Assembly: GCF_910592395.1 (NCBI RefSeq)
Contig: NC_088309.1
Coordinates: 20,152,599-20,216,598, forward strand
Direction: 5' to 3'
From: Lineus longissimus
Taxonomy: Eukaryota > Nemertea > Pilidiophora > Heteronemertea > Lineidae
Length of the DNA: 64,000 nucleotides
Part shown: positions 1 through 53,970 of the stretch, piece by piece
Layout: each line of letters begins with the position of its first letter
Numbering within the stretch: position 1 is the first letter of the stretch
The notes under the pieces: model-generated
Seen by the model: only the letters and a program-made list of their open reading frames with translations
Databases searched by the model: none
What the model was told of the DNA's origin: nothing
Made by a program: the position numbers and the translations under genes

Positions 1-18299
<18,299 letters not shown>

Positions 18300-19881: not shown

Positions 19882-22800
19882 TTAAACAATGCAACTCTCC
19901 TGCCCGCTGCCCCGGCGAATCTGAGCCATGTGCGCAGAATTCTGCATAATTGTATGCCAACCAATCAAGTTTGGAGCAGTCATTTTTCTCTGCACATATC
20001 CTATTTGTTGTCCAGGTGACCTGCGTTCGAGACGTCTGACTTTCTCTTGTGTGACATTTCTTATAAACATCTGTCGTCTGGGCTCGTGAAGATATTTTTG
20101 GCGGATCCTCAAGGAGACACCCTTTTCGATTCTCGCGTTGGTTGGCGTTGTAGGTTGTGACTTGCTAATGTGTCTGTCCTCATCTTGAAGCTGCAAAAAC
20201 AGTTATATTGATAAAGTGGTATTACCTCTGGTTGTGACTTTGTCCTCGAGACCAATTTGGGATGGTCCAAGGTCTTTCCGAGACAAAAATGGTCACTATG
20301 TAGGTTCTAGGCATATTGAATGAACAGAAAGGAGGTACATTTTCACAGCCCAGAAAAATTCTTTTTGAGGAAAGCATGATTTTATTTGCATGGCGTGAAA
20401 AGGACTATCGCGCAACTCTTTTATGTTTTAAGTCGTCGCTTATACATTGGTCATGACAGACGTCAATAAATCCCCGCCCGTCATCATGCCAGTGCGTGCA
20501 AGGGATATCACTTTCGACCAGAACTCTATGCTCGTGAAACCAATCATTTACCTTGGTTTGAATCGTTGTTCCGGCCGAATAAGAGAAGGTGCGACTCCTC
20601 TGCAGCAACTCCCCAACTGCCCTCAGGACATCTTCGCGCTTCCTTCCGTCCGGAGTAACCCGCAAACGACGAGAACTTGTAGCCGGTTTGCTATCAAAAT
20701 CCTGTTTTGTATGAACTTCACTAATGAATCTCTCCCCGTCTTTTTGAGGGCCTTTTTTGTCTTCTTCTTCAAATAAAATATCATCTTGCAATGTTACTTT
20801 TTCAATCTTCTTGTCTTTCTCGGTCTTCGTGAGGCCGTGATTGTTGTCTGCTCCACCGCTTTCTCCGCAATCTACCTCAACCTGATGCGCTTCGGGTTCA
20901 TCGGCAAATTGAATATCAACGGCTATACCTTCGTTGTGGCTTCTCTTTTCCGTCTCCTCCTCTTTTTTCAGCAATGTGTCTACTGACAAGGATAATTGTC
21001 GTCCGCGACGACGCGCACTCTTCCTCGCCGATCGTTGACGCCGGAGATACTCCCGCTGTCTGAATGAAAGACTGGGGTCAAAGGTCATATGCTCCTTCCT
21101 ATATTGTTCTTTACATTCATTGGTTGTTCTCATGAAAGTAATGTTCTTCTCATGAATCAAACGATCCACGGACTGAGCAGGAGTGAGCGGTTTCTCTCTG
21201 TTTGGTAGCACCAACGCCATCAATCCGTGCATTAAATTCTCTTCAGGAGACGATCCATCGAATACGTCACCGCAACCTGTTCCTTCCCGCGACAACCGAG
21301 GAAGATGGGTGTCTGTATCATGAAACAAATCAGGGAACGCTCGTAATAATGTCAAAATCAATTGTCTGGGAGCATTTTCTAAACCAAGTCGGCGCAACTT
21401 CGGCAAATCAACTGCGTCTAACTGTATTGTCCTTGTCCCGACTCTTGTCCGCAACTCTTCCCTGATGCTCCTTTTCTCCATGTCGAATTGTCTCTCCACA
21501 TTCAGTCTCTGATAATCGAGTTTCTTTATAATGTCTTCCAGTTTTCGTTGATCTTTGTAAATCTTTTCCTTCGTAGCGACAGATGTCTCGCTGATCAGCG
21601 GGTAGCATTCAACGACCCGTTTTGTCCGATTCCAGGCCATTTGGGCAGGGTTTCTGAAACATATGATCAGAAAGGTGAAGTGAATATCTCGACAATCTAG
21701 CCCGCAATATTTATTCCCGTTAATAGGCGGGCCGCGTGTGCAAAACAGTAATTGGCGATTATAGATGGGCCTGGAAGTGTCATTTTCTCCCCGGGCCATG
21801 CAAATATTCCTCGCTCGTTACTTATATGGGTACGAGGAGAGGAGCGTGCAACTGACCCTATTTTCGATAAGGATATTTCATATAGAATAGTCCATTTTTG
21901 TGGGCAGTTAAAAATGTACTCACAAACCGATAGCCTATTATGACTGCTGATTATAGTTGTACAAAACTTAGATTCTATGGTGTTTGGTCATAAATCCAAA
22001 TTTTTCAGAGCCAACAAAAATACAGTGCAAGATGAAAAAACTACCCACCTGTGTCTTTTTGGTCCAAATTGTTTCCAGTCCACCTCAGAGATTTCAATAA
22101 GCGGGCTTTACTCCAACACTGTTGTGTCTAGTTCAGTGCAACTCTTTTTGAAGTCGGTTATAAATCTCAACCTACATATAAATAAGAACACCCACTTATT
22201 TCATAATTCTATGAATTCGATCGAAGATGGCTAATAATGTCATAATCAAGCTAATTTCAGCAAGTGTTTAGTTTACAGTATGACAAAGCCGCTGAAACTA
22301 AGACGTCATCTGCGGTCCGCAAAAGAAGTAAAAAAACCCGGAATCACTCCCCCGCCTTGCAGCACTGACATTTGAGAAAATTAGCCTGCTTGTTGCTCTG
22401 CTGTCTATAACGGTTATCTGTGATATTTCGGTCACAAACGCGACCCTTTTTCTGATCTTTGCCATTCGGCTTTTGCTTTTAGGTTAATATAGCAAACATT
22501 TAGCGCTACATAATCTTGATTCGTAGAAAATGCTATAAGTTAGATTATGGAAGTTTACGCCTTAACATATAATTGACGTCGTCGGCAGTTTACAAAATAG
22601 AAAATGTTGTCCTTTATAAACAGTTACACTACCACAAGAATCCGGAGAGTCAACATATATCAGACATCAAACCTGAATAACCTTTTTTGCTCATGTCTGA
22701 TAATCATAATACCTCACACCGAAAACATTAATTTACTCAATTATGTCTATTTGAATGTGCTAAATTACACCCTCCTGTTTGTCTTTCATTATATGTTCAC

Positions 22801-23331: not shown

Positions 23332-24105
23332 CTTCCAACTAAACATGTCATGGGCCGGTTAGAATAAATGCACAATTGCGTGACAAATTTGTACCATTTT
23401 ACTTCAGCTTGTATACAGTGTTTACATGCAACTGTTCATGTTCTTTTGGTAAAGATTTTTTTAAAGAACAAACACGTCTTGCGCCTTCTGATGGTCAATG
23501 ATCTTTATTTCGTCTGCCCATGCAGAAATCTCAAGAATGAAGCTGGAAATTTGATATAACATTCCAAACATTGAATGATCAAGTTCAGTTAGGAATTTCA
23601 TTATCAAATTACTATTCAAACACGTTGAATATTCCTTTCGTCATAGAATCATCCTTAGTCCTACTTGTTCTTCATTATTCGATCGCCTATTAACAGACAG
23701 GTTCCACAACCTTTACGAAGAGCTACGAAGTACGAAGTGTAGACCTATGTGTAAGTGTGTAAATGAACATTATCGACGACTTTAAAAAAAGCGAGAGAAC
23801 ATTCATGCTCCTGCATTACATGTGTCCGGCATGCATAAAACTAAAATTTATCATATTTTCAAACCGGAATTTGAAAATGATAGAAACATCCACCACTTCT
23901 AATTATTCATGCTATTAAAATGATGTGTGCGCACATGTTTGTATCTTTATTCATTATATATCATCCGGGAACGCCTGTATATATTGCAAAATGGCGGTGA
24001 TAACGATTGCCTGTAGTCGCATTTTATAGAAATTGAAACATTCAGCGAAAACACAGGAATTTTGCTACTTGATTGTGTTGGAACTGGTTGCCGAAGAGAA
24101 CAGTT
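23332..24105. promoter_or_regulatory. Divergent promoter interval between two genes
   Basis: The 774 bp between the start codons of the minus-strand 503-residue gene and the plus-strand transporter. Near the right end, AAAATGGCGGT (23988-23998) resembles a YY1 site and contains an ATG (23991) that opens a 12-codon upstream frame ending at 24029. The left gene starts within another AAGATGGC word. TATA-like words (TATATAT) occur at 23956-23983. A shared bidirectional promoter is possible but unproven. Confidence 0.4.
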
Positions 24106-27100
24106 ATGGTGGACGCTCCCAAGGAAAGCGCCAATGGTGATGTGCCCATGGTGGACGCTCCCAAGGAAAGCGCCAATGGTGATGTGCCCATGGTGGACGC
24201 TCCCAAGGAAAGCGCCAATGGTGATGTGCCCATGGTGGACGCTCCCAAGGAAAGCGCCAATGGTGATGTGCCCAAACCGGTGCCAAAACCGGTGCCAAAA
24301 CCGGTGCCAAAACCGGTGCCAAAACCGGTGCCAAAATCGGGGCCAAAATCGGGGCCAAAATCGGGGCCAAAACTTAAACGTTCACGCGCCTTCCAGGTCG
24401 TTTCAGTTATTATAATAGGTGTAATTTTCCTGACAATGGTAAATATCAGGCATCTTATTCCCATATTACCCCCCCCCCCCTCCCGATATCATGAAGGTGG
24501 CTGGTAACGGTAGTTATGCAAAGGCTATGCTATCTGCATGTTAAAACGTCGCTCTAGACTCCCTGAGCAGCCTATCGCGTCATCCTAATTGGTCTCCTTA
24601 CGAGGCTGGTCCACTGCGTCCGGGGTGTACTCTATGTCTGTCCTCATGGCAATAACCACTTTGTTTAATCAAACAAATCCAGTTTGTGTCCCTTTATGAT
24701 GGAAGCAATATCTTTCCATACGTACGTGTCCAAAACGCCAGTCAGCTCGTCCTATCTCACGCAATGGCTACTGTTTGTGTTTATAGGTCTAACATAGTTG
24801 TTCAGTGTTCAATCCCGGTTCACTACGAGAAGCACAAAAATGATTATGTTAGTTTTTCCAGTTAAAGACATCGTTGACAACACTTTTTACAGGGAACAGC
24901 AGTGGCATTGACAGGACTCACTCTGGAGAATCTTCAGCATGTAACCAATTCAAGCCAACCGATTACAAGCCTGGTGTTCTGTGGGCGAGGCGGAGGCGTC
25001 CTTGCGGGGACACTTATTGCCGGGCTGCATGCCTGTGCCTGTGGGGAACGATTCCGCGCACTTATAACTGGAGCTGTATTGTTTCCCACGGCTGTGGCCA
25101 CAGCGGCTATTCCGTGGTCCCCCATCATCTACAGTACTATATTGATACATTTCTCGCAAGGACTTGGAATAGGATACGTGAAAACAAGTAAGAATCTATA
25201 GTATAGCTCATCGTTATTTAAATCTGTTTCAGTGTCAGAATACTTGTAGCTCATCGAAAATTTGCGTCCGTGAAAGAACATTACAATCCAAAACGTAAAT
25301 GTGGAGTCAACAAACTGTTGGAAATGAGAATCGGGTTTGAGAGTTACAGAGCAGTATCTTAGCTGAGAACCAAACTGCATCCATAAAGTTAACCATTTCT
25401 TTGTTCTTTCAGGTTGTATAATGCTGCTTACACGCCAGTGGGGCTACCTCTCTCCCTCTGTCCTGGGCGTTCTCCTGACATTCTTCAACGGAGGATGCAT
25501 ATTGGCCACACTTTCGACTCTCGTCTTATTACGAGAAAACAACTTTGGTGAGGTCTACAGCAATGCAAGTGCCGCTGGGATTTACGGCTACAACATAACG
25601 AGTGACCTCACCAATGGAACAAGTAACACCACCAACGCAAACATGACACACCTATTCCCTACGATCGGAATTGGCACTTTATTTGATGCCAACAATTACA
25701 CTGATGGCGCCTCCAACGAAACCAGTGATACCGATAATGATGCTTACAACGCAACAAATGGCATCGCTAATATAACGAGTGACATCACTAATATAACGAG
25801 TGACATCATTAATATAACGAGTGACATCACTAATATAACGAGTGACATCACTAATAACATTACCAAGGCAAACATGACACACCTCTTCCCCAACAGAACA
25901 AGTGGCGTCTTCAACAGAACGAGTATCGACCACAACACAACGAGTGCAGGACACAACAGATTGAGCATCATCTTCAACAAAATCAGTGCCTTTTGCAACA
26001 GAATGAGTTCAGCTCCCAACATAACGAGTAAAATCCCCAATAGAACGAGTGTCATCCTGGAAGGTTTGAGAGACATCTTCAACAGAATAAGTGCCCTTCC
26101 CAACACAACGAGTTACATCCACAACAAATTGAGTGACATCTTCAACAGAATGAATGCCACACTAAATACAACGAGTGACATCGATAACGGGACGAGTCAC
26201 ATCCCCAACAGAAAGAGTGACATCCACAAAGGAATGGAAGATACCTTAAACAAAGGAAGTGTCATCCCCAACAGAAAGAGTGACATCCACAAAGGAGTGG
26301 AAGATACCTTTAACAGAGGAAGTGTCATCCCCAACAGAAAGAGAGACATCCACAAACGATTGGAAGATACCTTTAACAGAGGAAGTGTCATCCCCAACAG
26401 AAAGAGTGACATCCACAAAGGAGTGGAAGATACCTTTAACAGAGGAAGTGTCATCCCCAACAGAAAGAGAGACATCCACAAACGATTGGAAGATACCTTT
26501 AACAGAGGAAGTGTCATCCCCAACAGAAAGAGTGACATCCACAAACGATTGGAAGATACCTTTAACAGAGGAAGTGTCATCCCCAACAGAAAGAGTGACA
26601 TCCACAAAGGAGTGGAAGATACCTTTAACAGAGGAAGTGTCATCCCCAACAGAAAGAGAGACATCCACAAACGATTGGAAGATACCTTTAACAGAGGAAG
26701 TGTCATCCCCAACAGAAAGAGAGACATCCACAAAGGAATAAAAGATACCTTTAGAATGGGAGCTAACCATAAAACATTGAGTGACATCTTCAATAGAATA
26801 AGTGCCATCCCGAATAGAATGAGTGACTCAAACATCGAATTTAGTGATAGCCACGACAGAATGAGTGCCATCACCAAAAGAATGAGCATTATTCCCCCCA
26901 AAACGAGTGCCATTTACAACAGATTGAGTAACATTCTCAGCAGAAAGAGCGCCATCCCCGACAAAACGAGTCCCATTCACAATAGATTGAGTGATATATC
27001 CAACCGAAAAGGCACCATCCCCAAGAGGCTGAATGCGATCCCAAAAAGAAAGATCTCCAATCACAACATAACGAGAACCATCCCAAATGGAAAGAGCGAA

Positions 27101-28585
27101 ATTCCCAAAAAAACGAGTTCAGTTAACCCCAACAGAACGGGCATACAACCCAACAAAACGAATCCCAATCACTATGGAGTGGCCAATGGTTTCAACAGAA
27201 CGAGTGTCATCCCCAACAGATTGAATGCAATCGTCAACAAAACGAGTGTCAAAAGCAACGGAACGAACTCAAACAAAACTAATGACATCGCAAAGAGATT
27301 CTGTGAAATCTTCAAGAAAATGGGTGAAATCCAGAACCAAATAAGTGACAACTTCAACGCAACACATGGCGTCACTAGTATATTGATTTACCTTTTTAAT
27401 AGAATGGATAGAATGAATGTGGTCACCAACAAAACGAACACCATCGCTAACAGAACGAGCGCTGTTAACAACAGAACGACTGCCATCCGCAACAGAACAA
27501 GTGACATGACAAACGGAACAAGTGACATCCCCAATATCTTCAACAGAATGAGTGACATCTCAAACATAACAAGTGAGGTGACCAACAGAACGAGCGACAT
27601 TAACAATATAACAGGTGATATGGCCAACATGACAAGTGACATGACCAACAGAACAAGTGATTTCACCAATGGCACAAGTGACATGATAAACAGCACAAGC
27701 AGAGAAAACATAACCGACCATTCGTCTGCAACTTCATCTTCTTCTTCTCCTGCAAAATATATTAGTATTTCACACATTGTTGAAGAAGTCCATAAACTTA
27801 TCAAATTAACAGGGTTTGATCTATCGAATCTTCGTCTGCTGTACATTGCCCCAGCAATACTGATGATCGTGGCGGCCATCTTTACGATATTGTGTTTCCC
27901 AGTACTAAGTAAGATACCGACCACAATAGTTACTCCGATTGAAGTCAACACGTCCTTCCGCATAAAAGTATGCTACTTTGTCTTCCTGTATTTCAGTGTA
28001 GGCTACGTCAATTTCTACTTTTTTCAAGGACTGGAGGCCTCATTTGGAGGACAGGGGTTGACATTCGTGCAGTTAGCAGCCGGTTGGACTCGAGTGCAAG
28101 GTTTGGGTTTAATGTTGGCATTTTGGAGCGCCAATGCGTCCGCTTGCTTTGGGGCGGTCATATTGGTAAAGTTCCTTTCAGCAACGACTATCAATATTAC
28201 CGGGCTTCTTCTAATGGGTTGTGGTACCATCGAAATCATTTACGGCGCAGCTTATACTGTAGTCTTCCTAGCTGGGGTTTGTCAGTTAGGAATAGGTCTC
28301 GGATTATTCAACACCTGTATCATCGTGTGGGCAGACTATTACACCCGTATGGACCCACGATACGTCTCGACATGGGTGGGGTTACTTTCAGTCGGGGAGA
28401 TTTTTCTGCCGGGCGCAATCGGTTTTTTCTTTGAGGCATACTCTCCTTTAATGTTTCAATTTCTCATCGTTGCCATCATATTTAACGCTGTCGGTTATGC
28501 ATTTATAGAATTGGTGGGATGCGTCAATAGCCCAACTACCCCAATTTGGCAGCACATCGGTCTCCGAGAATTCCCGACAAACTAA
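24106..28585 (+). CDS. MFSD4/NaGLT1-type major facilitator transporter with giant glycosylated loop
   Basis: Plasma-membrane-type MFS transporter; the family includes the sodium-dependent glucose transporter NaGLT1 (MFSD4B), but the substrate here is unknown. Exons 24106-24438, 24893-25187, 25413-28585; phases close and the product is 1266 residues. Order: cytosolic tail with 14-residue repeats (MVDAPKESANGDVP, four copies) then KPVP x5 and KSGP x3; TM1 about 96-120 (VVSVIIIGVIFLTM, then GLTLENLQ); TM2-TM5 to about residue 249 (GGGVLAGTLIAG; GLGIGYVKTSCIMLLTRQWG); loop 250-1017; TM6 from about 1018 (APAILMIVAAIFTIL); TM7 with FFQGLEASFGG, the family's signature-like segment; then five more helices. 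The loop between TM5 and TM6 is extracellular in MFS topology, which suits its sequons. Family members normally have about 500 residues, so the extra length is almost all loop. The start codon has a good context (GTTATGG). Confidence 0.85.
24109..24276 (+). repeat. Coding minisatellite, 42 bp x 4
   Basis: Four essentially identical 42-bp copies (starts 24109, 24151, 24193, 24235), encoding VDAPKESANGDVPM; the last copy runs into the KPVP repeats. Near-perfect identity at the nucleotide level indicates recent expansion, so copy number may vary between individuals. Confidence 0.9.
24274..24369 (+). repeat. Coding microrepeat, 12 bp x 8
   Basis: Five copies of AAACCGGTGCCA (KPVP) followed by three of AAATCGGGGCCA (KSGP). 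Codons are identical within each set. It forms a proline/lysine-rich cytosolic stretch before TM1. Confidence 0.9.
24555..24646. repeat. Dispersed repeat, copy 2
   Basis: Relative of 18849-18942, lying in intron 1 of the giant-loop transporter. A 12-base C run precedes it at 24469-24480. Confidence 0.6.
25560..27720 (+). repeat. Degenerate 10-11 codon repeat region (sequon-rich loop)
   Basis: The whole TM5-TM6 loop is built from a drifting unit of about 30-33 bp, read as N-R-T-S-D-I-x-x or N-R-I-S-A-I-P and similar. About 44 N-x-S/T sequons occur (for example NITSDITNITSDI and NRTSDFTNGTSD). They cluster at both ends of the loop and are absent from the 63-bp array in the middle, where NRK and NRG replace NRT. 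Confidence 0.88.
26198..26764 (+). repeat. Coding minisatellite, 63 bp x 9
   Basis: Nine 63-bp units (starts 26198, 26261, 26324, 26387, 26450, 26513, 26576, 26639, 26702), encoding 21 residues of the type VIPNRKSDIHKGVEDTFNRGS. Two main versions exist, SDIHKGVEDTF and RDIHKRLEDTF, and they partly alternate, implying past expansion of a 126-bp double unit. Because 63 is divisible by 3, several other frames stay open across the array; those are shadows. First and last units are the most diverged. Confidence 0.93.
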
Positions 28586-29179
28586 GCCAGACGTTCGCCG
28601 GTCTGTCCTATAGCCACAGCTTGAAGCCAACACTGCGCGATAGGCTAATGCGGTCATTCCCAGGAAAAAAACATTTACTGTAAACGGGCCACTTTTAAGA
28701 CAATTTTATCTAGAGGCTGATAAATGTAGATTCCATTAGCCATGTGCAATATAGTGAGGTAACTGGCATTTCTACATGGGAACGTAACACTAAATTGATA
28801 TCGGTTAATCATGTGCCCTGTTGGTACATGTACATGTATATCCCAAAGCCGAATTTACAGTAATCAAGCATTTTTGATGAACCAACTGTATGGAAGAAAG
28901 GTACTGTATAGGACGGATAAAAGGCCTCTGATTTACCCAACATGGTTTTAGTTATCGATATTTTTTTGATTCTAAACTATAACAATGTAACTGCAATGCG
29001 GACCAGACACTGACGTGAGTACATGTATTTGCATATGACGTGTAATTTCCTCGAAAAGAGTAAAACCGACATCACTATTTGATCCTACTAATTTTTTTGC
29101 CATAATTTTGTTTGAAGCAATTACAACTGGGAAGGAAGATAAACGCAAGATCGCTATAAACAATATCAAGATAATTTCT
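28586..29179. other. Tail-to-tail spacer after transporter
   Basis: 3' flank of the giant-loop transporter. No AATAAA was seen close behind the stop codon, so its transcript end is unresolved. No gene seen. Confidence 0.6.
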
Positions 29180-32100
29180 TTTATTTACAGATACAATACT
29201 ATGCACATAAAGTGGTCTAAAACGACTAGCTGTACAAGATACAAGAGTCTCTTTTAGGAAAAGGGCTGAGATCCTAATCGCTTATCAAAACCAATATGAT
29301 TACTTACGATACCGGTATATATGCACATCACATGTGCATTTGCGAACAGAGTCGGGGTCAAAAGCTTAATATATTACAGCTGAATCGAATACAGTTAAAA
29401 AACACATCGTCATTGAAATTTACAACGACGTTCAAATACTTTTGTTGTGCACCTATAAGATGCATAGTGCTTAAGGTATAGCGAATAAATGCCTCGATGG
29501 AACGGGAGCGGGTACAATTGAAAACATTGTAAATATTCAAAAGCATTGTAAAACTTCTCAAGTTATGAGGGGCGGATATTTCAAGATATCTCACTGCACT
29601 TTTTACGAAAGTGGCAAACTTTTCAAATATTATCACCTAATCTGTGTCTCTCCGTCAAAAAAAACCATAGAACAAATTAGCAAGTGAAAATTCTAAGTTT
29701 CGGATGGGGGCAGGCTTTTGCTCAAATTTTACAATGTTTTTGATTGAAGAATGACACGATCCCTAACATCAACGGTACGACCATAAGCATCTCGAGATCC
29801 TGAGTTACGAGTCCCTCCATCGACTCTCCGCAAAAAGGGCTCTCTTCCAAAAAACCTGCGTACGATTTACTTAGCTGATGTTTGCATTCGGATCTAAATA
29901 CTGGGCCTGTTGTGGACTGAGTTCAAACACCATTTTAGCTCTGTAATTATAGGCCGGGACTGGAAAATATACAACGAATTGGCTTAACTTAATTCAGCCT
30001 ATACTGGATGGTGAAACTTTGGCCACAGTGGTCCAAAAAAGAACCCCAGGTCCACATACCCGAAAACCAAGAAAGAATGAATGTGAGTATTTAAAACAAG
30101 AGCGAGTTTTCGCCAAGACATGGTATATCGGGGACTTGTAAACTCAAGAACACGAGATGCTCGGAACCGTGCTGTGGTTTTATTCTCCCGGGAGTTATGG
30201 AGGAATGTCTCGAGATAAGGCCGGGTCGGTCCAAATTAAGTTCACGTGCTTTGAGAGGTATATGTAAGAGATGCGCCGTCGTCAACGAATTGTTTGAGCA
30301 CACTTTCGAAATGTTACCTCTTCGTAGCAAAATCCTTCAAATCTATCCTGGGAAAGGGTAAATACACACCTCAAAATGTATTTGGTGGAAAACCCAGCAC
30401 ATAGGCGTTGGAAGAACATTATAAATCAATTCAAAGCAAAATTCATTGACTTGTTTATACACTGCAGTGCATAACGGTGTAGAAGTTTGAAATAACCTGG
30501 AGTAAAATGTCTCTGAAACAAAGGATTCTATTTTGTTCTCTTGACGACGGCAATGGCCTCTACAGAACCAAACACAATGATCTGTCAGAAAAACAATGGT
30601 CTGATACTCTCATTTCAGGGGGACAATTTCTACTTCTACACCGGCATATACCAAAATGCATGACCCTGAATTCTGGTCCCCATGCAAACACGTTTGATTT
30701 CGACGATACATACATATCCTGAATAAAAATATATAAAGCCATGTGGCACCTAATGTATGGCGACGAACTCTCACGAACAACACACACACAGTAACGAGTA
30801 ACAGAGTAAACAGTAACATGGAACCAGCTGACCTGGCAGTTGGACCAGGTCTTACTTTAAATCAAATTTACATCATTCCTTTCTCACACTGATAGAATTA
30901 CAATGGCAAAACATTATTCCAAATAAAAAATATGTACACTTTGACTCATACTAAAATGGTTTTCAATAAACGGACAGTCTCCAAACCAGCAAAATAGCAA
31001 AAAAATATAGTGCTGGAATGTTGATCTCGTTCATGTCTTGGTCAGTGAAAAATGACCTCTGGGTACTAAGTATGACCACACCCCTTTTTAGATGCAGCTC
31101 CATACACCCTAAACAATCTGGTCCAAGGTGCTAGTCTCGGTAAGCTAAATAAGCGAAATTCGCCGAAACCTGAGATACATGTACCACGAATGAGACCAAT
31201 GCGATTTAAGAAAACATGCATTGATAAAGGCATGACCCTGTTTCTAAGCAATTATCTAGTTATGATATTTTAGCCATTCTCTCAGATAAAATCACATTAA
31301 TCGTGTTTGGCATGTCATAGAACCTCATCGACTAGTTATTGGTTGCCCAGGATTTTTTGACACTTGTTGTGACATACTGTATAAAGTCTTCAGGTGCCGT
31401 TCCGTCTTGGAAATAGCGGGTCCACATTTTAGATGTAGCCCTCAATAAATATGGCTGTCTGTCAGCATCATAATAAACAAGTTGTTTTACCCATATTTCA
31501 TCCATCAAATATCTGGCGTGGCATTGCCATCCAGATCTCACACTTGTGGTACCAAGCCCTAGTTTCTAATTGCAAAATTATCTTTCTTCACCCTCATTAA
31601 AGTATATTGTACATAGCCTAAAATGTATATGATTATTTCGAACATTGTATTGCAGTTGCAGCATTAAACTCGATGAGTTATGCACAAAGTAAATACAGAA
31701 GCTATGAGATAGATGGTAAAGCACCAAAAGATCTAGAAGTAACAACAGCATGGGAGCCAAGATATTTTATGTAAATGTATTAATCCAACTGCAGACTGCC
31801 ACTTTTAAACCACCATGCTGCTGAAGGCTGAGATCAGAAACTAACCATACGGACAGTTTAATTCTTTACCGTATTGGCTAGTCATACATGTAATTAATAG
31901 ATTGACTTACAGGCCAGAACAGATCTGCCAGAAGCTTTGTGGCTAGTGAAATAGAAGGGATGAAAGCACTCTTAACCTCGTTGAAGATTCACGGGATCTG
32001 CTGATAACACACATTCAACATAATTACCTGAACTCATACATCATATTTACACATCTATATACATATTATTTACATATTATTTACAGTCTCACTCAACAGA

Positions 32101-32979: not shown

Positions 32980-35900
32980 TCAAGTTTCCATCACATCACC
33001 GGTTATGATATTGCTGCCAAACAGCATATTGGGCTGAGTTCCAAAGTCGTACTGGCTCCCAAATGCATGGACTCGATGGAGGTTGGCCTTGGAATCAAAG
33101 AGTGCTCTTCTCACCGTAAGCAAAGAATTTTGTGTGACACTGTTTCCAGATGACTTCGTCCTTTCACTGAAAGAGAACAGGGAGAGTTCAGTACAAGGGC
33201 AATGGTTTAATTCTTGAGTGTTGTTTTTCATGGTTTCCAAGAAAACGGTTCGGATTAATCGATCAAATTGTCATTTCTATGGCACAATTGTCCAGCCAAA
33301 CAGGAACCTTATTGGTTTAACCCGAGATGTTGCCCGTCGCAAGAAGATGAGAAATTTTATGGTTACTCAAAGAGGAAGTTTCTAAATTGGTTGTGGATAT
33401 ACTGGTAACATTTCGTTTAGCCCACGTTTAGCCTAAAACAGCCAGCCCGTCTGTCAATACAAATGTAGCCAAAGAGCCCACCATTAGCCAAGTAAAGTCT
33501 TACTCATTGTTAGTATAAAGAAGGTTGCTGTTCATCCATCCACTTTCTTCATCGGTCTCGTACGTCAGTGGCAATCTCTTCAGGGCTGGAAGTAGGATGA
33601 CCTTGCTCAAGATGATAGCAGTGCCACCAAGGTAGAAGGAATAGGAATACGTCCCCGTCGCATCGCAGAGCCAACCTGAAATCAAGAGGGGAGATATCGA
33701 TGAAGAGAACTTGAGGAGATATCTACGAAGATGTCAGCGATAAACAACAACTGCTCCATATCCTATGTATACATATACATATGCACGATTTTCCGATTTT
33801 TTGGCGACTCCTCCCAATGTCCGCATGCATTCATAACCAAGCTGCGTACGTAAATAAAACTTCGACCGATTTGGGCTTAAATTAGCGATTCAATCTTTGG
33901 TATTTGTGTTTCAAATGTGGGATAGATACATACATTATAAACCACAGGTTCTTGCCAAGAGGCAATAATCTAATCTGCCACGAGGACATCCTGATCCCTG
34001 GTTTGACTTCTAAGCTTTTACTCTCATGGTATCCTTTTAGTGTACATGTACTTTCCTGACAACGTACCTGCTACTGGTGCCCCGACAAGTTGTCCTATAC
34101 CCTCAAATGAGATGAGGTAGCCGAGTCCATGAGCAAACCTTTCCACCCCGAGAAACTGGATGAGGATATCTGGAGTCAGCGGTCCAACTGAGGCAGAAAA
34201 GAAGCCGAACAACACTGATATGACAATCAGACCACTGTAGGTGTGTACCAGCGGGACAGCTTCAATCGGTATGCCAACAAGCATGACTGATAGTATGTAT
34301 ATAACAAGGACATTCACTCTGGGATTCAGGGCGGAGAACCCCCAGAATAGTCTTCCTACGAAGTTTGCTAGTCCGATGCAGGAATATAGGATGGCCGAGT
34401 TGTCGTCGCTCACCCCTTCATACTTGGCGTAGACAGCCAGATGCATGTAAACGATGCCAAATCCAAATGCCTGCATCAGAGAACTAAAGCATATCAACAC
34501 AAAACGGTAGTTTTTGAAAAAGGAACAGCCCAGTGTTTCGTAGAGGGACTTCTTTTCTTTGTCAGCATCATCTATAGTCTTCTGTGGTTTTGGTTTCATA
34601 ATCAGTGAGGTTACCAACAGGTTTAGCGTGATCCCGGCCATGATCAACAAAGAACCTCTCCAGCCATATTCCTCATCCAAATAGCGAATAAGTGGTGGGT
34701 AAACCACTGTGCCAAATCCTGTTCCAGTGGCTGCCAAACCTAATGCCATGGTACGATGCCTGTCGAAATACCCGCCCAAAACGGACATACAGGGCAAAAA
34801 TGAAAGGCCGATTCCACATCCTGAAATGATAAAGCAATAGTGTTCAGAATACATTAAACTATGATCTTCTAAAAAGCTGATAGTCGCAATCAAACATCAT
34901 CACGAACAGTTTAAAATACCACAGAACCATACCACTCCTACCAAATTCTTGTCGAACAGTTTGTTTGCCTGAAATTGGACTTTCAGAAATTGGGTGGACT
35001 ATTTGAAAAAGGGAGTCAACCCAAAGCTCGTACACTATTTAATTACCTACCTGCAACAACTCCAAATGTGGCATAAAGTTGATATATGTTAGTAGCCATG
35101 GCACTTGCGATGAGACCAGCGACAGATAAGAGACAGCCTATTATCATTAGCACACGATTATCGAACTTCTTCATCAGCACGCCTGCGAGGGGACCTACAA
35201 CCAAAAGAAAACTATGTAAGATGATGATTTGATGCTTGGGGCATGACCATTAATACCCCATCCAATTCTGTACTGTGAATTATTGATTGAATAAAAAGAG
35301 TATGAAAGTCAGAGTGTCCGCGTCGGACCACTCATCCTCTGAAGAGGCAACAACAAACTTGGGTTCGAGCTGCAAGCGTTAGTGCAGAGGTACAATGTAG
35401 GTGCAAACAATAAAACTGCTAGCTGCATTAAAGGGATTTGAAAGACGGAAACAGGCTGAACTTGCTATAAAATTGAAATTAGCAAAATGTTGGTAAATTT
35501 AGTCAAATGAAGGCTGAACACTGAAATTTGGGAATAGGCGACATAGAAATGTGATGAAAGTAGCTTTCCACCATGTGTTGATGGTGATTCGATATTGAAA
35601 TGGTCAAGGAATCCTGGATGTTCGTGATGTCATAGTGCCACTGCCACACCAGACCAAATGGTGGCAGTGGAGGTTTTCTTGGTCGTCGTCTTCTTTGCAT
35701 GTTCCACCACCATGCAACTAAATGAATAAAGGGCACTTATCCTGGTAACAGCTTGGGCAGCTGCTTTGGCGGCGAAGAGGAGAAAGTTCTCCACTCCTAC
35801 TTACGATCCAACCATGTTCTTCGTTCTGTAAAACAACGCTTCCTAAAGGTCCCTTGGACACTTAAATTCAACCAAGTTGTCCATTCTTTAAGGATAGTCC

Positions 35901-38669: not shown

Positions 38670-40864
38670 TCAGGGTTCACGGCCATTGCATGAATCTATC
38701 ATCGTTTTCGTAATGAGGCCTGGTAGGGTTATACTATAGTTTATATCATTAAGAGCTGGTATTTACTGGACTGAGAGACTGAAATGTTGCCAAAGTGGTC
38801 ATGGCATACGAAGATATTTTGCTGGCAGCTCTACAGAATGAGTCCCAAAGTTAATCTTCCATAATCTCATCGGCTCATATTGTGACCTGAACTCCAATAG
38901 GTTGAGTACTGGCAAGAATAGAGCTCGCCAGCTCGCCTTCGCCTTATGTTTGGTACTGGTAAACACCCTTCGTTTTTAAATGTGGTTCACAAAACGAACT
39001 CAGAACTTGTTTTTACACTATCCATTCTAGAACCGGCAATAGCATCTAGCACAAGTTTCCTTCTCAAACACAACTTTCGAAATAGTCAAATTTGACAAAA
39101 AAAGGAATTACAAATATATACCGAATTGATGGGTGAATGTACGTGTATACCGAGAGATTACGTAGATGCCTTTTTGACCCATCCTGTATGGAGCTCTAAC
39201 TACCTGCAATTCGTAACTTATTGAAATATCTGACCTTCAGTTCATCTATCCAGACCACACCCACGAGTAGTAATGCCATGTGACTTACTACCCTAGATGG
39301 GCTTGAGGATGTTTTCCCTTAAACTGTGTTTGAGAATCGAAGTTCATTCCTCTATGGTTGTGCCATTATATATATAAAGCTAGTTCTCGAGTCACCTTTG
39401 GTGGAAAAGTCAAGTCCAGCCCAAGATTTCTCCCATGAGCATTGCGCCGCGCACATTAATGATGTTTTTAGTGGGCATACAAGTCAGTGATTCCAGAAAA
39501 GCCAGAAATCACAAATTGCCCCAACGGCTGTCAATGTCCACCAATTTACAAATGGCATATTTTTTGTTTTATTAGTTTTTAAAAAGGATCTGATCCCCTA
39601 TTTAAAACTTAAAACTTTGCACATGCAGGCGAGGTGTAGTTTAGAGGAGATAATGTACATGTAGTTGTTTTATTTTTGTATCAACATGTTCTTTCTTCAT
39701 CCATTGGCCAAGTTGTTTCTATTATACGGTCTCATTATGCAGTGTGATATAAGGGTTATTAGCACTTCGTCCCTTGCGAATGGAAATTGTATGTAATCGT
39801 CGCTGTCGTCATAGCAACAGCGGAAAATGACCGCTATATCGGTCATCAGTTCATGTGTTGCCTGATATATATATTAGTTCCTCTATATAATCTTAAAAGT
39901 TTCTTATTGAAAGACTCTGGTAATATATAACATCATCACTGGAAGTCAAGTATATCAGGCCACCTCATCAATTTAAAGGATGTGTAACGAACATCACGCT
40001 TATATATAGCTCGGCGCAAAAACGGCAATAGTTGTTCCAGGTTATCTGCACTGATTTTATCCCCATGTAATACACTTCCAAAGGTGACTCGAACAGGCTT
40101 ATCTGTGAAGAGATAGAGAGATAAGTTTGCGTTTTATCGAAAATTAAACAGATGGGAGGCGAATCGTACGAGGTTATGATGAGCGCTTTTCGGCAAGGGT
40201 AGCAAATGATGTGAGGGGCTAAAAGCATTCTTTCCGATATTCAATATAAGCCTATTAGGCCTAACTTCGACCATTACACCTCTCGTCTGCCCTTGGATAC
40301 ATTTGGCGCCATTTTGCGTTGTTGAAAGAGTGAGTCGCGGCAGACGAAAAAGTGTCTGGTCGAAATGACACATCAACTAATCCTACAAATATGGGCCTAA
40401 CGTGATGATTAATATGCATTCATACAGTTCAAGTGAATAGCAAACAGTATCATCTTAGACTTCTTACCTATGAAGCAGAGGCACGCCGAGTTGATGGAGC
40501 CAATCCATGACGTAGGTCCTTTCCCTTGCTGGAACACCTCAAGAAAGATGACGTAGTACACGCCGACGGTCCAGCAGATTCCAAACATCAGGAGATGGGA
40601 CAACAGTGCTGCAACCATCACAATCCAGGAGTAGCAATCTTCAATACTCTGGGGTGCTTCCCCGTCGGCACTTCCTTTTGAGACTGTGCCGTCCCGTGGC
40701 CCCTCAAAGAAGCTTGGTCGCCTGGCATATTGCTTGCCGTCACCGCCCTTGCGTTTGTCTTCTGGCGACTTCTTTGCTTTTCTTTCTGGAATTGTTGTTG
40801 TCTTCACCTCTGTTGATATGCTCACCTTCCTTTCGTTCGTCTGGTTATATTCTTGGTTGGTCAT
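32980..40864 (-). CDS. SLC16 family transporter (monocarboxylate-transporter-like), left paralogue
   Basis: Twelve-helix MFS carrier of the plasma membrane; substrate unknown. Coding exons: 40468-40864, 35051-35194, 34068-34820, 33504-33675, 32980-33166, giving 550 residues with splice phases 1,1,1,2. A 70-residue basic, serine-rich cytosolic tail precedes TM1 (EDCYSWIVMVAALL), the degenerate form of the MCT motif (D/E)G(G/S)(W/F)GW. The second MCT signature is clear after TM4: YFDRHRTMALGLAATGTGFG, ending YGWRGSLL. The TM11-12 segment GWLCDATGTYSYSFYLGG is also typical. In TM8, GLANFVGR has Asn where MCT1 has Asp302 and keeps the Arg306 equivalent. The exon containing the ATG begins at a splice acceptor 17 nt upstream, so a non-coding 5' exon must exist. 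Resembles the orphan MCT9/12/14 group more than lactate carriers (inference). Confidence 0.93.
35195..40467 (-). other. Intron 1 of left SLC16 gene (5.3 kb)
   Basis: Contains an (ATC)n microsatellite (38630-38667) and AT-rich sequence. A minus-strand frame at 35868-36098 faintly recalls a retroelement integrase but is too degenerate to call. No other gene seen. Confidence 0.65.
38630..38667. repeat. (ATC)n microsatellite
   Basis: About 12 perfect ATC units inside the first intron of the left SLC16 gene. Confidence 0.95.
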
Positions 40865-43800
40865 GATAAGGTTAGGAGTTTCTAGAAAAGAAAAAGATAG
40901 ACTTATGAGACAAGTTTATAAAAATGCGAAGAGCTCCATCTTCACTATCAAAATAGCAAGTTAAACATTTAATTATGAACACAGATCACGAAAAATTTTC
41001 AACTGAAAAGATTTTGGTGAAATCATTATAAATTTCGTTATAGCCGAAGTCAGCGATAACGACTCACAAATGTACCTTGGAGAAACATGACTCGCGCGTC
41101 ACCAACACCAGACTGATACCTCGCAGTTATCCCCAAGCCGATGGTATACAAGTGATAATATGATGACACGGAAACACTATAATTGTCGCCAAAGCAGGGA
41201 TCGGTTCCTTTTACTGAGCCACGCCGTATACAGTTGTCATGTGTGTGTGTGTGGGGGGGGGGGGGGGGTAGGGAGGGGGTAAGTCATGCCTGCATGGATT
41301 GTCGATCTTTTCCTGGCTATTTCGATGCTTGAAAAGTATAGGCTAACTTACCACCAATAGTTCACCGCAGTTGAAAGTGTTTGAGAAGAAGGCCTACTTC
41401 TATATACACTGATGTTGCACTGTCGTCTGCTATTGTTTGATAGGGCGATCATCTGATGATGCACCATATCCTAATTGGTCACATGGCATTTCTGTCAGTT
41501 TCCTCCCAGTACAAAGGTCAATATTGCATGGCAGTGGAGAATATCGCGCTGTATTTGCCACATGAGGTATTGTTTCTGACGCCTTATCTTCTGATATACA
41601 TACGTACACTCTCGATAAGAGCAAAAATAGTGCAAAGTGCCAAGTGCTATAATACGGTTTATCCCGAGTTCAGGGTTTTTCTCACTATACTTCGTAACTT
41701 TGCTGTTAGAGGGCAACACCCCTTCTCAATTTTTATATAATTCGTTGCGATTGCCTACCTTTTTTGCCTATTTATGCCATTTTGTGTACCTTTTTTTCCG
41801 GTACCTTTTTTCCGGTACCTTTATTTCCAGTACTTTTATTTCCTGTACTTTTATTTCCTGTACCTTTATTTCCGTACCTTTTTTCCTCTACCTTTTTTTC
41901 CTCTACCTTTTTTACCGTATACCAAAATAAACATACACTCTGGCATTCCCATAGTCAAAGCTTATTATTGGTAGACACAAATTGGGGGGGGACTAATTTA
42001 AAACGTGTGATTGGAAATTAGGTGAAGTTATCATCATTATACCAGTCGGTCAGCACACCCGATTTTTAAAAACGCATATTCCCGACAACGATTTTTTCCA
42101 TCCTCGCCATTACTGCTGATATTGAATGCATACGTCCAAAGCTTAGGCTTGCCTCCTATACTTTCACTTACAATTTAGACTATGCAAGTACAATAGGAAA
42201 TGATTTTTTTAAAGTTGGTAATCAGGCACATTGGTTTATTTATTCATGGTTTTATGTCTATAATACGGTCGCCTTAAAGTTCATATAAAGGCCGGGGTAT
42301 ATAGGCTGTACGAGTCAGCATTAGCATTATGGTCATGACGACCAATACTTATAAAATCATATGATATATCAGCCTTGGTCATATAATGAACTCTTGAGTG
42401 ATTTAGAGGCCTATGTTTTATTTTGAGGAAAGAATGAAACACCTATGATATGGGTTGACCATTGTTACACGGAGCAATTTCATGCCGAGATCATGGGGGA
42501 AAACAATAGGCCATTAAAATGCAATGTAAAATTTCTCAGCTTATTATTCATTACGTTTTATCATAGATATCAATAGAATAAGTAATCTTGTTGCCGATAA
42601 TACAATGAATTACACGTTCAAGCCAATGTATACACTGTTGGTGATAAATAGTCATAGCAATTAACACATTATTTGTTAATTGTTCCAAGGCTATTACGGC
42701 CACACTGCACTCAAACACTGCAGCCATAAGTCATAATTAGACATTATCTGTTTATGATACATGATATATCAATTTATCATCCAAGGGACTAATAACTGGC
42801 ATGCAGAATCATGATACAATATTCACAATATGATGACCACATACATTTGTGTCACCAGACAATTATTTTACATCCGTATTAGGTGCAAGCCCCATGTAGA
42901 GCTTTAGAGTTACCAACTTGCACGTTTATAAAATGTCATCATTGTTCGGTGTTAAATATTTTCTAGTCACGCTAAACCATACGGTTACTACAAACTGGCT
43001 ACATTGAACATCTCACTTTGTGTTTACTATTCATTTAAATTTTTTCATCAGATCCGCTCAGTCATGCAGTCTAATTGTCACCCTAAGAAATGTATGACCT
43101 ACATTTCATTTTAGTGATTTTAGTGAATCCCGTAGCGCACGAATACGAACAATTATCTCCAAACATATTTATATCTATACATGAACCATACCAGCAGGAG
43201 CAACCCACATGATGATTAACAAATAAATGGTAAGTCTAAAACAGTGTTTCATTTCGTATTGTTCGAACACTCACTTGGCGAACGTGAGTGGTGAGGAGCA
43301 CGTTGATGACCATGGTAAAGTAGCTGTTTTTCAGTATATCGGGGGGGGGGGGCATGGACCACAAAAACGAGAAATGGAATAATAGAATAGTACAAATAGC
43401 TCAAGGGCCAGAGTATACCAGTCATAGTTCAGATATGTACGTTGAATCATGAAGCTATAACATTATATATGTACAATGGTCACAAATGCTGTCGCAGGCT
43501 TCCTGTGGTTTATCACAACAGCCGCATGCATGGACGATTTAAATAGTGTAGAGGATTAATACACTATATCATCAAGTATAGTATGTATCTAAACAGGGTG
43601 CGATCTTGTTTTTCTTGGACTTTGGTCAAACACAACTCAATTTGTACGACTTGTGTATAGTCATGAGGCGATTGGGTTTGATGCTTTCTCCATCGAAAAA
43701 AGTGTTCGGCACTCCAGTAAATCCATGCTTAAAATGGCTTTTCGTCGAGTCGTATAGGCCTTTAAATGTACGAACCTTTAAAAATATTTTTCGGAACAGT

Positions 43801-46285
43801 GCCAGAAAAAGTCCAATAACTCGATATTTTAGCTGAAAAGAGCCTCCGCTCCCCGGTCTGCTGGCAGTCGGGGAGAGAGTTAACAGTAATTGTTATACGA
43901 ATCCCTTCAGATAAGAGGCGGTTTGTTGGAGCGGCCAGAGTGAGATGGTCGATGATCGGTTATATTTATCGTTTAATCATTTCTAAAATATAACCGACGT
44001 TAGTCCATCCATGGAAGCTAAAGAGAACGACCAGTTAAGAACCAGAATGCGCCGGGAAATGACAAAGGAATGCAGTGATGTTGAATTTAAAAGAAAGATC
44101 CTTTATCTTCTACAACAACAATTGCGTGAGCTGCCCCATTTTGTCGATGTGGAGCGAATTAAATGTTGCTTCCCCACAGTACCATAAAATGTATGGTACT
44201 GGTAGTCCTTCGAGTCTTTCTTGCCGATACCAGCTATATGCATGTACAGCGAGACGAACAGCTGACTGTATAGTTTTCAAAATGGACGCCATTTAAGCAT
44301 AACATTAAGACCCGTTTCGGGCTGAAGGGATGTTGGTGAAATACATTAACTGCTCTAGCATCCAATTAACCCAACACCAGTACATCAGCTAATGTATCTT
44401 AGGAATACAGCTGCTAACTTCTACAGTATTATTTTCATGCAATAGCAAGACTTACCTCAATTTTCAAGCGAGAAACGCAGCCTTCCCTCTGTATGATACG
44501 AAGCTTCAACAATCCGTCTACCGATACAGCATTATGCAGGAGCTCCTATTGATTATCTTACAAAAGCGCCAGCCCAACCAGTTCCAACCGGTTTCGCGCT
44601 ATAATGTTTAATGCGCCAGCGCTATATATACATGTATGAAGCAGACGATATTTCACGGACGTAGGAGTAGGGCAGGAAAGTCGTGTGCTAGGCCAGTTAT
44701 TTCTCTCAAATTAATTAAGTATGTTATGGATAACATTTTTCGCATTCAATGGTAATGTTGGCCTAATTTCGAATGGATTGAATTGATATCAGGTTCAACG
44801 ACTCGGGACTGCAAATTTGGAACGCGGGGTCCAATATTTTGGATCTCCAGGGTTTTGGTTCAGCCTCAGCCATGGTCATGGGGATTCTTGTCTTTCAGGC
44901 AGAATTAAGATGTGAATATCCTGCATGCACTGAATGTGGTTTTTTTGCGATGGTATACATGTGTATTTCTGCAGTTATGTAGGACTATAATGCATCCGTG
45001 ATGGAACATGGTCAACGTGACCAGAAATCAAGAACCATTAATGCAACCTATGGAACGGCATTGGGGATTGAACGTATCACGTCACATCACTCTTTTATCC
45101 GCTTGCCATTGCATGTCTCCAGAAGAAAGCGGGGGGGGGGGGGTTAATGTGCAGGGCTGGAGAAGCGAACATTAACCCCTGATTTCCTCAGGATGCATTG
45201 CATGGTGACTGTAATGTTGTCTTTGCAAATTACAAAAGTACATTTCTGGCAAAAATTTAGGTTATCAATTGTTTCATAGAAAAGAGATAGAGTGGCCAGC
45301 TGCTGAAGTCAGAAATGACGCTATATACACATAGCAATTAAAAACAAGATGATTTGGCAGATTTGAAACTAATGTATTCATCGAACGATACTTGCTGACA
45401 ATCACTGCTCGTGCTGAGAGTTATGATGGCCTATATAGCTCTCATTATCTGTTTTTTAGGACGAGTCCAACCAGCTATTTTAACTGTATAATAGTTAAGC
45501 ATGCCTGGTGTAAAAAATGGACAATGACATTTTCACACGCAAGTGAATTATTGTTTTTCAGAGACCTCATGTATAGGCCTTTGTCGGACAAACCCTACTA
45601 ACTGCTATAGCTAGCTCAGTGCCAGCTAAACTGATCTAGAGCAAGTATGTAGGGCCTACAAATATATCCCATTGCTAGATTTTTATACATTCTTGCTACA
45701 GTATTATACTATACAATCATATATGTACATACACACACAGTAGTGGTGTGCCTTGCCATGCTAACATGCTACGGCGTTTGCTGGTCTCTGGTCTTGGATT
45801 AGGTCTGAGCTTTAGGTCTGATTCATCGGCGATCGCTTACATTTTCCTTAACTCTGATCGGGCTACTACGAATTGCATCGGTGCAAACTACATGTACTAA
45901 CATTTTCCACTTTTTCTGTATTAGCCTTCACTCTTAAAAGTTTTTTAGCTTCTCAAAAACCTTCACAAAAACCGTATTTCTAATATTGTGCATGTGCACT
46001 CTATACCATATTATTGTGTTGATTCGGGATCGCAAATCCTCTGCCGAGACGCCATCGTCAACGCACGTAATGGTCTGTATAATCTAGGTAGTTTTGTCAT
46101 ATCCTATGCCGTTGTTACTTTTTCAACGGACTTGAGTATCAGAATGATGTCCCTCAAACCTGAACAGGCGGATCAGCTCAAAGGTCTTCGTCATGTTCAG
46201 CCTATAGTTTACCTACCACGCGCGGAAAATATCAAGCAGTGGTTAATAATTTTTTTCCGTGTTTCAGAGATAAAGTGAGAATGCG
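40865..46285. promoter_or_regulatory. Divergent upstream interval of the SLC16 pair
   Basis: The 5.4 kb between the two start codons must hold the 5' exons and promoters of both genes, as each ATG exon starts at a splice acceptor 17-18 nt upstream. A plausible minus-strand donor (TTGAG then GTAAGT, exon ending at 44456) could close the first exon of the left gene. G runs of 12-16 bases occur at 41253-41268, 43341-43352 and 45131-45143. A T-rich minisatellite lies at 41785-41923. No coding gene seen. Confidence 0.4.
41785..41923. repeat. Minisatellite, about 15-16 bp unit
   Basis: About nine imperfect copies of a GTACCTTTTTTTCCG-like unit, T-rich on the plus strand. Open frames across it (poly F/L/P/V) are artefacts. 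Confidence 0.8.
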
Positions 46286-52528: not shown

Positions 52529-53970
52529 CACCCGCTGAAATTGTCACATAGTCAGTAGGTCATGTGGGACAGGCTTGGCAACAATGATCACCATTGACGA
52601 CGCTTGGAGAATGATCGAATGATTGTGACTTTGTCCTCAAAACACCATCGCCACAGATTGTGCCGTGCAACAATAGCAATTAGGATGATTTATGTAAAGT
52701 CTGATCTGGTGACTAGCTAGACCCCTTATTATCGCCTATAGCGCTCTAACTGCTATCACATTCCCTACATTCTAGTTTAGTGGTGGTGACTTTGTCCTCA
52801 AGACCAATTTCGGCAAAACACCATCGCCACAGATTGTGCCGTGCAACATAGCAATTAGGACGATTTGTGTAAAGCCTGATCTGGAGACTAGCTAGACCCC
52901 TTATTATCGCCTATAGCGCTCTAACTGCTATCACATTCCCGACATTCTAGTTCAGTGGTTGTGACTTTGTCCTCAAGACCAATTTCGGCAAAAGAGAATC
53001 GCCTCAGATTGGAATATTTTGCCGTGCATCATAGCAATTACAACACTGGATAAGGCCAGGATAGGATGATGCATCACCTAGTGACCATCAGCTTCACCCC
53101 CTTGTTCTTGCCTATAGTCCTCCTTAAAGTGATAATACTGTTAAGACACTTTATATATCCGATTGGGTCAATTCACAAAATTGCATAAGTTCATGCAGTG
53201 TGTCATTTATCGAAAATTGGTAATCGAGATAATTGATGTAATTTCTATCAATCTTGTCTCCTCAGGATGTTTCCCTTTCAGGTTGTGACAGGAGTCTTTC
53301 AGCAACGCACATCACATCATACAGTATTGCAACTACAGTATAATTTCAACACCCGCTGAAATTGTCACATAGTCAGTAGGTCATGTGGGACAGGCTTGGC
53401 AACGATGATCACCATTGATGACGCTTGGAGAATGATTGTGACTTTGTCCTCAAAACACCATCGCCACAGATTGTGCCGTGCAACATAGCAATTAGAAATA
53501 TTTGTGTTAAGCCTGATCTGGAGACTAGCTTGACTCCTTATTATTGCCTATAGTGCGCCAACTCCTTTCACATCCCCTACATTCTGGTTTAGTGGTTGTG
53601 ACTTTGTCCTCAAGACCAATTTCGGCAAAAGAGAATCGCCTCAGATTGGAATATTTTGCCGTGCATCATAGCAATTACAAGACTGGATAAGGCCAGGATA
53701 GGATGATGCATCACCCAGTGACCATCAGCTTCACCCCCTTGTTCTTGCCTATAGTCCTCCTTAAAGTGATACTGTTAAGACACTATATATATCCGATTGG
53801 GTCAATTCACAAAATTGCATAGTTCATGCAGTGTGTCATTTATCGAAAATTGGTAATCGAGATAATTGATGTAATTTCTATCAATCTTGTCTCCTCAGGA
53901 TGTTTCCCTTTCAGGTTGTGACAGGAGTCTTTCAGCAACGCACATCAGATCATACAGTATTGCAACTACA
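52529..53970. repeat. Duplicated block, 821 bp plus about 620 bp
   Basis: Two consecutive copies (52529-53349 and 53350-53970) each begin CACCCGCTGAAATTGTCACA and end near CAGTATTGCAACTACAGTA. Inside them, subunits of about 160-175 bp start with GTGACTTTGTCCTC at 52625, 52786, 52961 (first copy) and 53438, 53598 (second copy). The second copy has lost one subunit. A tRNA-like TAGTTTAGTGG precedes some subunits, hinting at a SINE origin, but this is weak. Confidence 0.85.

Follow-up and report, generated by a model that had tools for sequence, protein, structure and literature searches.

Coding tandem repeats are the means by which mucins and other repeat-built surface glycoproteins multiply their glycan sites. 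Among transporters of the major facilitator superfamily (MFS), inserted outer domains are already known from PepT and SV2A. PepT1 and PepT2 (SLC15) have an outer insertion of ∼190 residues between transmembrane helices 9 and 10 (TM9 and TM10; residues 391-580 in mouse PepT1), which, according to the passages on this extracellular domain in PMC4597091, is folded and has three predicted N-glycan sites. For SV2A, the corresponding passages of PMC11026379 describe luminal domain 4 (LD4), which lies between TM7 and TM8, as folding into a beta-helix and having three putative sites for N-glycans. Here, we describe a gene of the nemertean Lineus longissimus in which the loop between TM5 and TM6 is built from a coding repeat and comprises 765 residues with 44 N-glycosylation sequons. 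It lies in a 64,000-nt stretch of NC_088309.1 (20,152,599-20,216,598; genome of 391 Mb in 30 contigs), which was analysed as a whole and is called the window, and the gene is referred to as the transporter gene throughout.

In its helix-bundle core and its sequon-bearing TM5-TM6 loop, the transporter gene resembles sodium-dependent glucose transporter 1 (NaGLT1, also MFSD4B) and MFSD4A. It differs from rat NaGLT1 in the size of this loop, which comprises only 37 residues and 2 sequons in the rat protein, and in the change of 19 of 30 polar positions that are invariant among relatives. As described in the cited passages, PepT1 and PepT2 likewise have an MFS core with a large insertion on the outside, which bears predicted N-glycan sites, but theirs is folded, much shorter and located at TM9-TM10. 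SV2A LD4, too, is a large N-glycosylated insertion in an MFS core; it differs by its TM7-TM8 position, its beta-helical fold and its three putative sites. The likeness to mucins is one of how the thing would work, since N-linked sequons in a transporter fold are found here instead of O-linked Ser/Thr/Pro tracts. The term mucin-like, used in the initial annotation of this locus, is thus apt as an analogy only, as the loop (Ser+Thr 21%, Asn 13%, N-linked sequons) lacks the Ser/Thr/Pro richness of O-glycan domains. In literature searches restricted to open-access text, no repeat-built MFS loop of such size and site number has been found, and the repeat-built form rich in N-sites is a variant of the known inserted outer domains.

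The transporter gene and its repeat-built loop

The transporter gene (24106-28585, plus strand) comprises three exons, which are joined by GT-AG introns into a single frame of 1266 residues, and it looks intact in all exons, splice sites and codons (Table 1). The open frame around the third exon extends over 25367-28585. Bounded by LATLSTLVLL at the end of TM5 and by NLRLLYIA at the beginning of TM6, the giant loop has been found at the place where the initial annotation, made from the letters alone, had announced ∼770 residues and ∼44 sequons; with a slightly different anchor it counts 766 residues, and 43 of the 44 sequons are of the NxT type. In 20000 shuffles of the loop composition, the number of sequons averaged 21.0 and did not exceed 37, so that the observed number was never reached and a chance origin of the sequons has been rejected. 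The sites are unevenly distributed: the proximal flank has 23 and the distal flank 21, and the ∼292 residues between them have none. A uniform glycan canopy is not supported.

Tandem Repeats Finder and wrap-around alignment agree on a repeat unit of 21 nt or 7 residues, in place of the 10-11 residues first proposed, with the consensus AAC AGA ACG AGT GAC ATC CCC (N-R-T-S-D-I-P); accordingly, Asn and hydrophobic residues recur in the loop with a period near 7. A higher-order block of 63 nt has additionally been amplified in the middle of the loop, and this part is free of sequons. In the diverged units, N is found in 56/76, T in 44/80 and S in 49/80, and the N-x-T-S motif at the centre of the initial description therefore stands as the consensus core, although with much drift. 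The net charge of the loop is +34. The N-tail (24106-24373) is likewise repeat-built, with four copies of MVDAPKESANGDVP (42 nt, 100% matches, Tandem Repeats Finder) followed by KPVP/KSGP units (12 nt, 8.8 copies). Every 42-nt copy of the N-tail repeat has an in-frame ATG of its own.

Table 1. Parts of the transporter gene, in positions of the window
Feature	Position	Strand	Content and basis
Exon 1	24106..24438	+	Start codon, repeat-bearing N-tail (predicted cytosolic), most of TM1; reading frame and GT-AG sites
Exon 2	24893..25187	+	End of TM1 to TM4; NaGLT1 profile and paralog-exon profile
Exon 3	25413..28585	+	TM5, giant loop, TM6-TM12, stop; open frame, acceptor score 11.8
TM5-TM6 loop (predicted extracellular)	25532..27826	+	765 residues, 44 sequons
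63-nt array inside the loop	26200..26753	+	Recent; 8.8 copies, 95% matches; sequon-free part
TM6-TM12 half and C-tail	27827..28585	+	Paralog/mammal profile, 50.9 bits

Family membership of the core and loops of its paralogs

The assignment of the core is based on profiles, on BLASTP and on gene structure. With a NaGLT1 sequence as bait, a database search whose top match was rat NaGLT1 has scored 7997 proteins, 883 of them at E 0.001 or better, and the best 120 have been used as a profile. This profile recognises TM1-TM5 of the transporter gene at E 4.9e-8 and the exon 2 stretch alone at E 2e-6. With a profile of the nine paralogs described below and three mammalian proteins, TM6-TM12 has reached the score given in Table 1, compared with 6.0 bits for the best of 2000 shuffles and 9.7 for the best other open reading frame of the window. 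Correspondingly, the TM1-TM4 exon has scored 50.0 bits against eight paralog exons, where 2000 shuffles reached at most 11.7 and a monocarboxylate-type MFS frame in the window 12.1, and TM5 alone has scored 18.8 versus 7.7 bits. In BLASTP within a 13-sequence set, the core without its loop matches the paralog on C8 at E 1.8e-34 (26.6% over 369 columns), mammalian proteins at 1.7e-15 to 1.6e-12, and the paralogs on C17 and C2:1.36M at 5.5e-4 and 0.032, respectively. Based on the profiles, the BLASTP matches to paralogs and the common intron sites, the transporter gene belongs to the NaGLT1/MFSD4 branch of the MFS as a fast-evolving, divergent member, which forms a long branch and takes no secure position in the tree; the fold had been named correctly on both sides of the loop, and an unrelated MFS family has been rejected for the core on these searches.

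General searches have been less informative. No Pfam model has matched the core up to E 1, as was also the case for 2/3 paralogs scanned, and a PDB sequence search of the core has given no match. In the protein database, 1478 candidates sharing 5-residue words with the complete protein were scored on its residues 1000-1266, none of them reaching 0.001, and the loop-less core has found nothing at E 1 among 7996 such candidates. Rfam at gathering scores has given nothing over 23400-29600.

Membership by descent does not imply a working NaGLT1, which is doubtful here as only 11/30 polar columns that do not vary among nine mammals and the C8 paralog have been kept and 19/30 have been changed, in an alignment from which 2/11 mammals were dropped for want of a split point and whose C-half contains a doubtful 7-residue gap. 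Among the lost residues are the Asp in the DTGG stretch of TM4 (replaced by Lys), two residues of the TM5 sequence QALHF (Gln and His), and the TM8 Arg. In two other divergent paralogs, the TM4 Glu is kept, and Gln, His and Arg are likewise lost. These changes hint at a loss of ordinary NaGLT1 transport in this gene without proving it, and the sugar-transporter core named at the outset is doubtful as a working transporter.

The NaGLT1/MFSD4 family is, by similarity, expanded in this genome. Combining a genome search with rat NaGLT1 and an earlier genome search, whose counts are lower bounds, we have obtained at least nine paralogs with an exon reaching from TM5 to the stop codon (on C8, C9, C12 with two, C3, C1 with two, C17, and C2:1.36M) and two partial matches, exon 2 alone on C13 and exon 1 on C7, the latter of which presumably resembles MFSD4A. 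The last exon runs from TM5 to the stop in 9/9 paralogs for which it was recovered. A GT donor follows TM4 at the same codon in phase 1 in 8/8 paralogs with exon 2, and the phase-1 acceptor before the last exon reads TTTCAG in 7/8 and TTCCAG in C2:1.36M; since phase 1 was imposed in seeking these sites, the result lies in the presence of GT and AG there. This common gene structure defines the family within the genome.

All family members compared carry sequons in the loop. In eight paralogs, it is short (39-81 residues, 1-5 sequons), and among the 120 mammalian NaGLT1 proteins it measures 40-42 residues with 1-3 sequons in the 81 having both anchors (39/120 lacked an anchor), so that the normal length of tens of residues assumed at the outset is borne out. 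As 9/9 paralogs and rat NaGLT1 have sequons in this place, the 765-residue loop is, on comparison, an extreme expansion of a loop that bears sequons family-wide. Its density of 5.8 sequons per 100 residues falls within the 2.4-8.0 of the relatives, and for this reason N-glycans are probably carried by the TM5-TM6 loop across the family. The ninth paralog (C8:8.92M; L002/L009, 1267-3489 of L009, minus strand) is of the same family with the same last exon, and its TM5-TM6 loop is enlarged as well, to 372 residues with 9 sequons. Unlike in the transporter gene, this loop is Thr-rich (16% Thr) and of another sequence, from which it follows that large loops would have arisen in two genes by different routes; the C8 paralog also keeps the residues common to mammals, as dictated by the way the columns were chosen. 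Within the C8 loop, an apparent internal duplication has been seen (KPTFANGKFLTSDPKVADGKNLKVLHDVGK / KPLTNGRILSKNKDVAAGKNVPRKLVDNVQK).

Translation, topology and competing readings

The giant loop very likely belongs to an exon and not to an intron, as judged from acceptor sites, reading frame and the paralogs. The clathrin heavy chain gene, which lies on the opposite strand, has supplied 14 introns for splice-site profiles (19 mapped, 5 dropped for length mismatch). Real acceptors, left out in turn, score 2.7-16.6, and the transporter gene's own acceptors 4.0 and 11.8, while none of the 177 AGs in 25600-27850 has scored above -0.5. Splicing the repeat out to leave a loop of normal length could use an in-phase pair of donor 25548 (score 2.3; real donors 1.9-12.4) and acceptor 27812, and further donor-like sites in the loop score up to 6.4, which is why the case against splicing rests on acceptors. 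The four in-phase exits at 27704, 27785, 27788 and 27812, however, score only -20.1, -5.3, -10.3 and -5.4 on this profile from only 14 introns, the paralogs have no intron there, and the indels of the repeat preserve the frame. We have thus regarded removal as an intron as very unlikely, and the placement of the loop in a single exon, as originally drawn, agrees with the layout common to the paralogs.

The frame within the repeat has been followed under four gap costs. The net length of each indel cluster is divisible by three (7/7 in three runs, 10/10 in the fourth), and 1934/1962, 1965/1970, 1977/1977 and 1789/1930 aligned bases are in codon register. Over a slightly wider stretch, 13 of 25 separate gap runs are multiples of three, and the remaining ones cancel within clusters when followed by hand, save for one final run where the stretch ends. 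The other five frames carry 9 to 68 stops over 25557-27720, by which the objection that any frame would be open has been set aside. As part of this difference is built into the unit, a better test is a simulation that lets the sites of the diverged units mutate at their observed rates and independently of one another. It has predicted 7.0 stops, while the repeat has none (P 0.001). For Asn at unit position 1, 37.4 are predicted and 56/76 are present (P 0.0005); for Ser at position 4, the prediction is 35.8 and the count 49/80 (P 0.0025). A decaying pseudogene or a mis-joined repeat without functional protein would fit the long branch with its many lost family residues, the frequency of assembly errors in repeats and the database search that found no protein of this gene; yet three exons with their splice sites and 1266 open codons, and diverged flanks without in-frame stop or net frameshift, leave this explanation very unlikely.

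A position of the TM5-TM6 loop outside the cell, which had also been presumed initially, is favoured by the cytoplasmic location of both ends of human MFSD4A, as stated in the passages on its topology in PMC5648162. Together with the sequons found there in 9/9 paralogs and the rat protein, this published orientation makes a cytosolic loop unlikely. Single-sequence models are of poor quality, with seven helices for TM6-TM12 (mean pLDDT, the predicted local distance difference test, of 43.6) and a mean pLDDT of 40.0 for the loop, with weakly suggested distal helices.

One may postulate the following sequence of events. In a single unbroken frame inside the last exon common to the paralogs, the loop would have grown by in-frame tandem duplication of a 21-nt unit (N-x-T-S-x-I-x) and later of a 63-nt unit, within the ancestral last exon. 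The frame would then have been kept open, with Asn and Ser held above the expectation for independent sites. We consider these steps, an expanded in-frame loop with its frame, Asn and Ser maintained, to be likely. The chain would further enter the lumen of the endoplasmic reticulum, where many of the 43 NxT sites may be N-glycosylated, and would form a long, basic and mostly unstructured brush whose two ends are anchored in the helix bundle, with two glycan-dense stretches flanking a sugar-free middle. Least certain is a role at the cell surface, in spacing, protection or display, for which the core would serve as an anchor and perhaps no longer as a sugar transporter. The roles suggested initially, as a glycocalyx element, in gamete recognition or as a shield of the pore, would be speculative. 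The whole chain up to a glycan-bearing surface brush on a divergent transporter core is held tentatively, at somewhat less than even confidence.

A number of observations weigh against this brush or its ancestry. The 120-protein mammalian profile has not matched the C-half of the transporter gene, and a rat NaGLT1 query of the worm's own genome has not placed the gene among the fourteen places listed. Only ten hydrophobic segments reach the hydropathy threshold, and the count of twelve helices therefore rests on alignment for the other two; the flanking charges give no clear positive-inside signal beyond the N-tail. In the simulation, non-synonymous change is not depleted overall (291 versus 303.5 expected, P 0.149) and hydrophobic residues at unit position 6 are not in excess (P 0.85), and all its P values are too favourable because the repeat units share ancestry. 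Thr has been lost from position 3 in 36/80 diverged units (∼45%), and, since the newest array is free of sequons besides, strong selection for glycan number is not apparent. As the main competing reading, replication slippage or unequal crossing-over may have enlarged a freely varying loop, which would be translated and maybe glycosylated on a core that acts as in the relatives, and would do nothing special. Such tolerated expansion is favoured by the sequon-free newest array, by amino-acid change that is overall as frequent as simulated, by a sequon density inside the relatives' range and by the fresh perfect repeats in the N-tail, and it is opposed by Asn and Ser above simulation and by the C8 paralog, whose own large loop of different sequence indicates that enlargement recurs. 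It is a plausible reading that we would rate below even chance, and it and the glycan brush are held to be nearly equal.

The heptad pattern of the unit, with hydrophobic residues at positions 3 and 6, could alternatively give helical or coiled-coil rods, and thus a stiff stalk or a dimerising element. The hydrophobic period of 7.0, with 3.5 among the top peaks, the long distal helices of the single-sequence model (pLDDT about 50-62) and weak Pfam matches below cut-off in the loop, some of which we take to be coiled-coil families, are consistent with rods. Nevertheless, pLDDT is <50 for 682/758 loop residues, Thr occupies position 3 in 44/80 diverged units, and position 7 is most often Pro (18 times), which makes rods improbable.

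Surroundings of the locus and meaning for the family

A clathrin heavy chain gene occupies 409-13529 on the minus strand, for which at least 19 introns have been mapped with a reference sequence, and extends past the low end of the window. Between it and the transporter gene lies an open frame of 470 residues (20408-21817, minus strand) without Pfam match at 0.001. Further MFS frames are found at 34027-34896 (minus), 40412-40915 (minus) and 46274-47894 (plus), which we take to be monocarboxylate-transporter-like; of four MFS frames of the window scanned, two match Pfam MFS_1 (E 8.4e-28 and 1.1e-21) and the other two do not. A 175-nt tandem duplication (2.1 copies, 93% matches) is present at 52638-53011, and TGTACCTTTTTTTCC forms a 15-nt array at 41785-41913 (8.8 copies). 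Elsewhere in the genome, matches resembling the loop (L003, L004, L005 and L007, 23-31% identity) look like unrelated short-period repeats and have been set aside. The open frames in L007 (2-3526, minus) and L004 (2-1141, minus) contain an ETNPGP motif, presumably 2A-like, and are probably mobile-element proteins; that of L007 also has a repetitive KQRARQDESKQKQLKTNDKLS stretch.

For gene prediction, the locus is a warning, with a core lacking any Pfam match up to E 1 and neither the long form nor the core matched among the database candidates sharing 5-residue words. The nine relatives, with loops of 39-372 residues, offer a series in which loop length and glycan number can be compared with surface delivery, transport and shielding. 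Provided that the loop is translated and carries N-glycans, a small loop with sequons has been converted by a coding minisatellite into a brush that exceeds the transporter itself in size. It is conceivable, though on balance doubtful, that the NaGLT1/MFSD4 fold has become a surface scaffold through loop growth in at least two genes, and that the gene described here would have traded transport for display or shielding.

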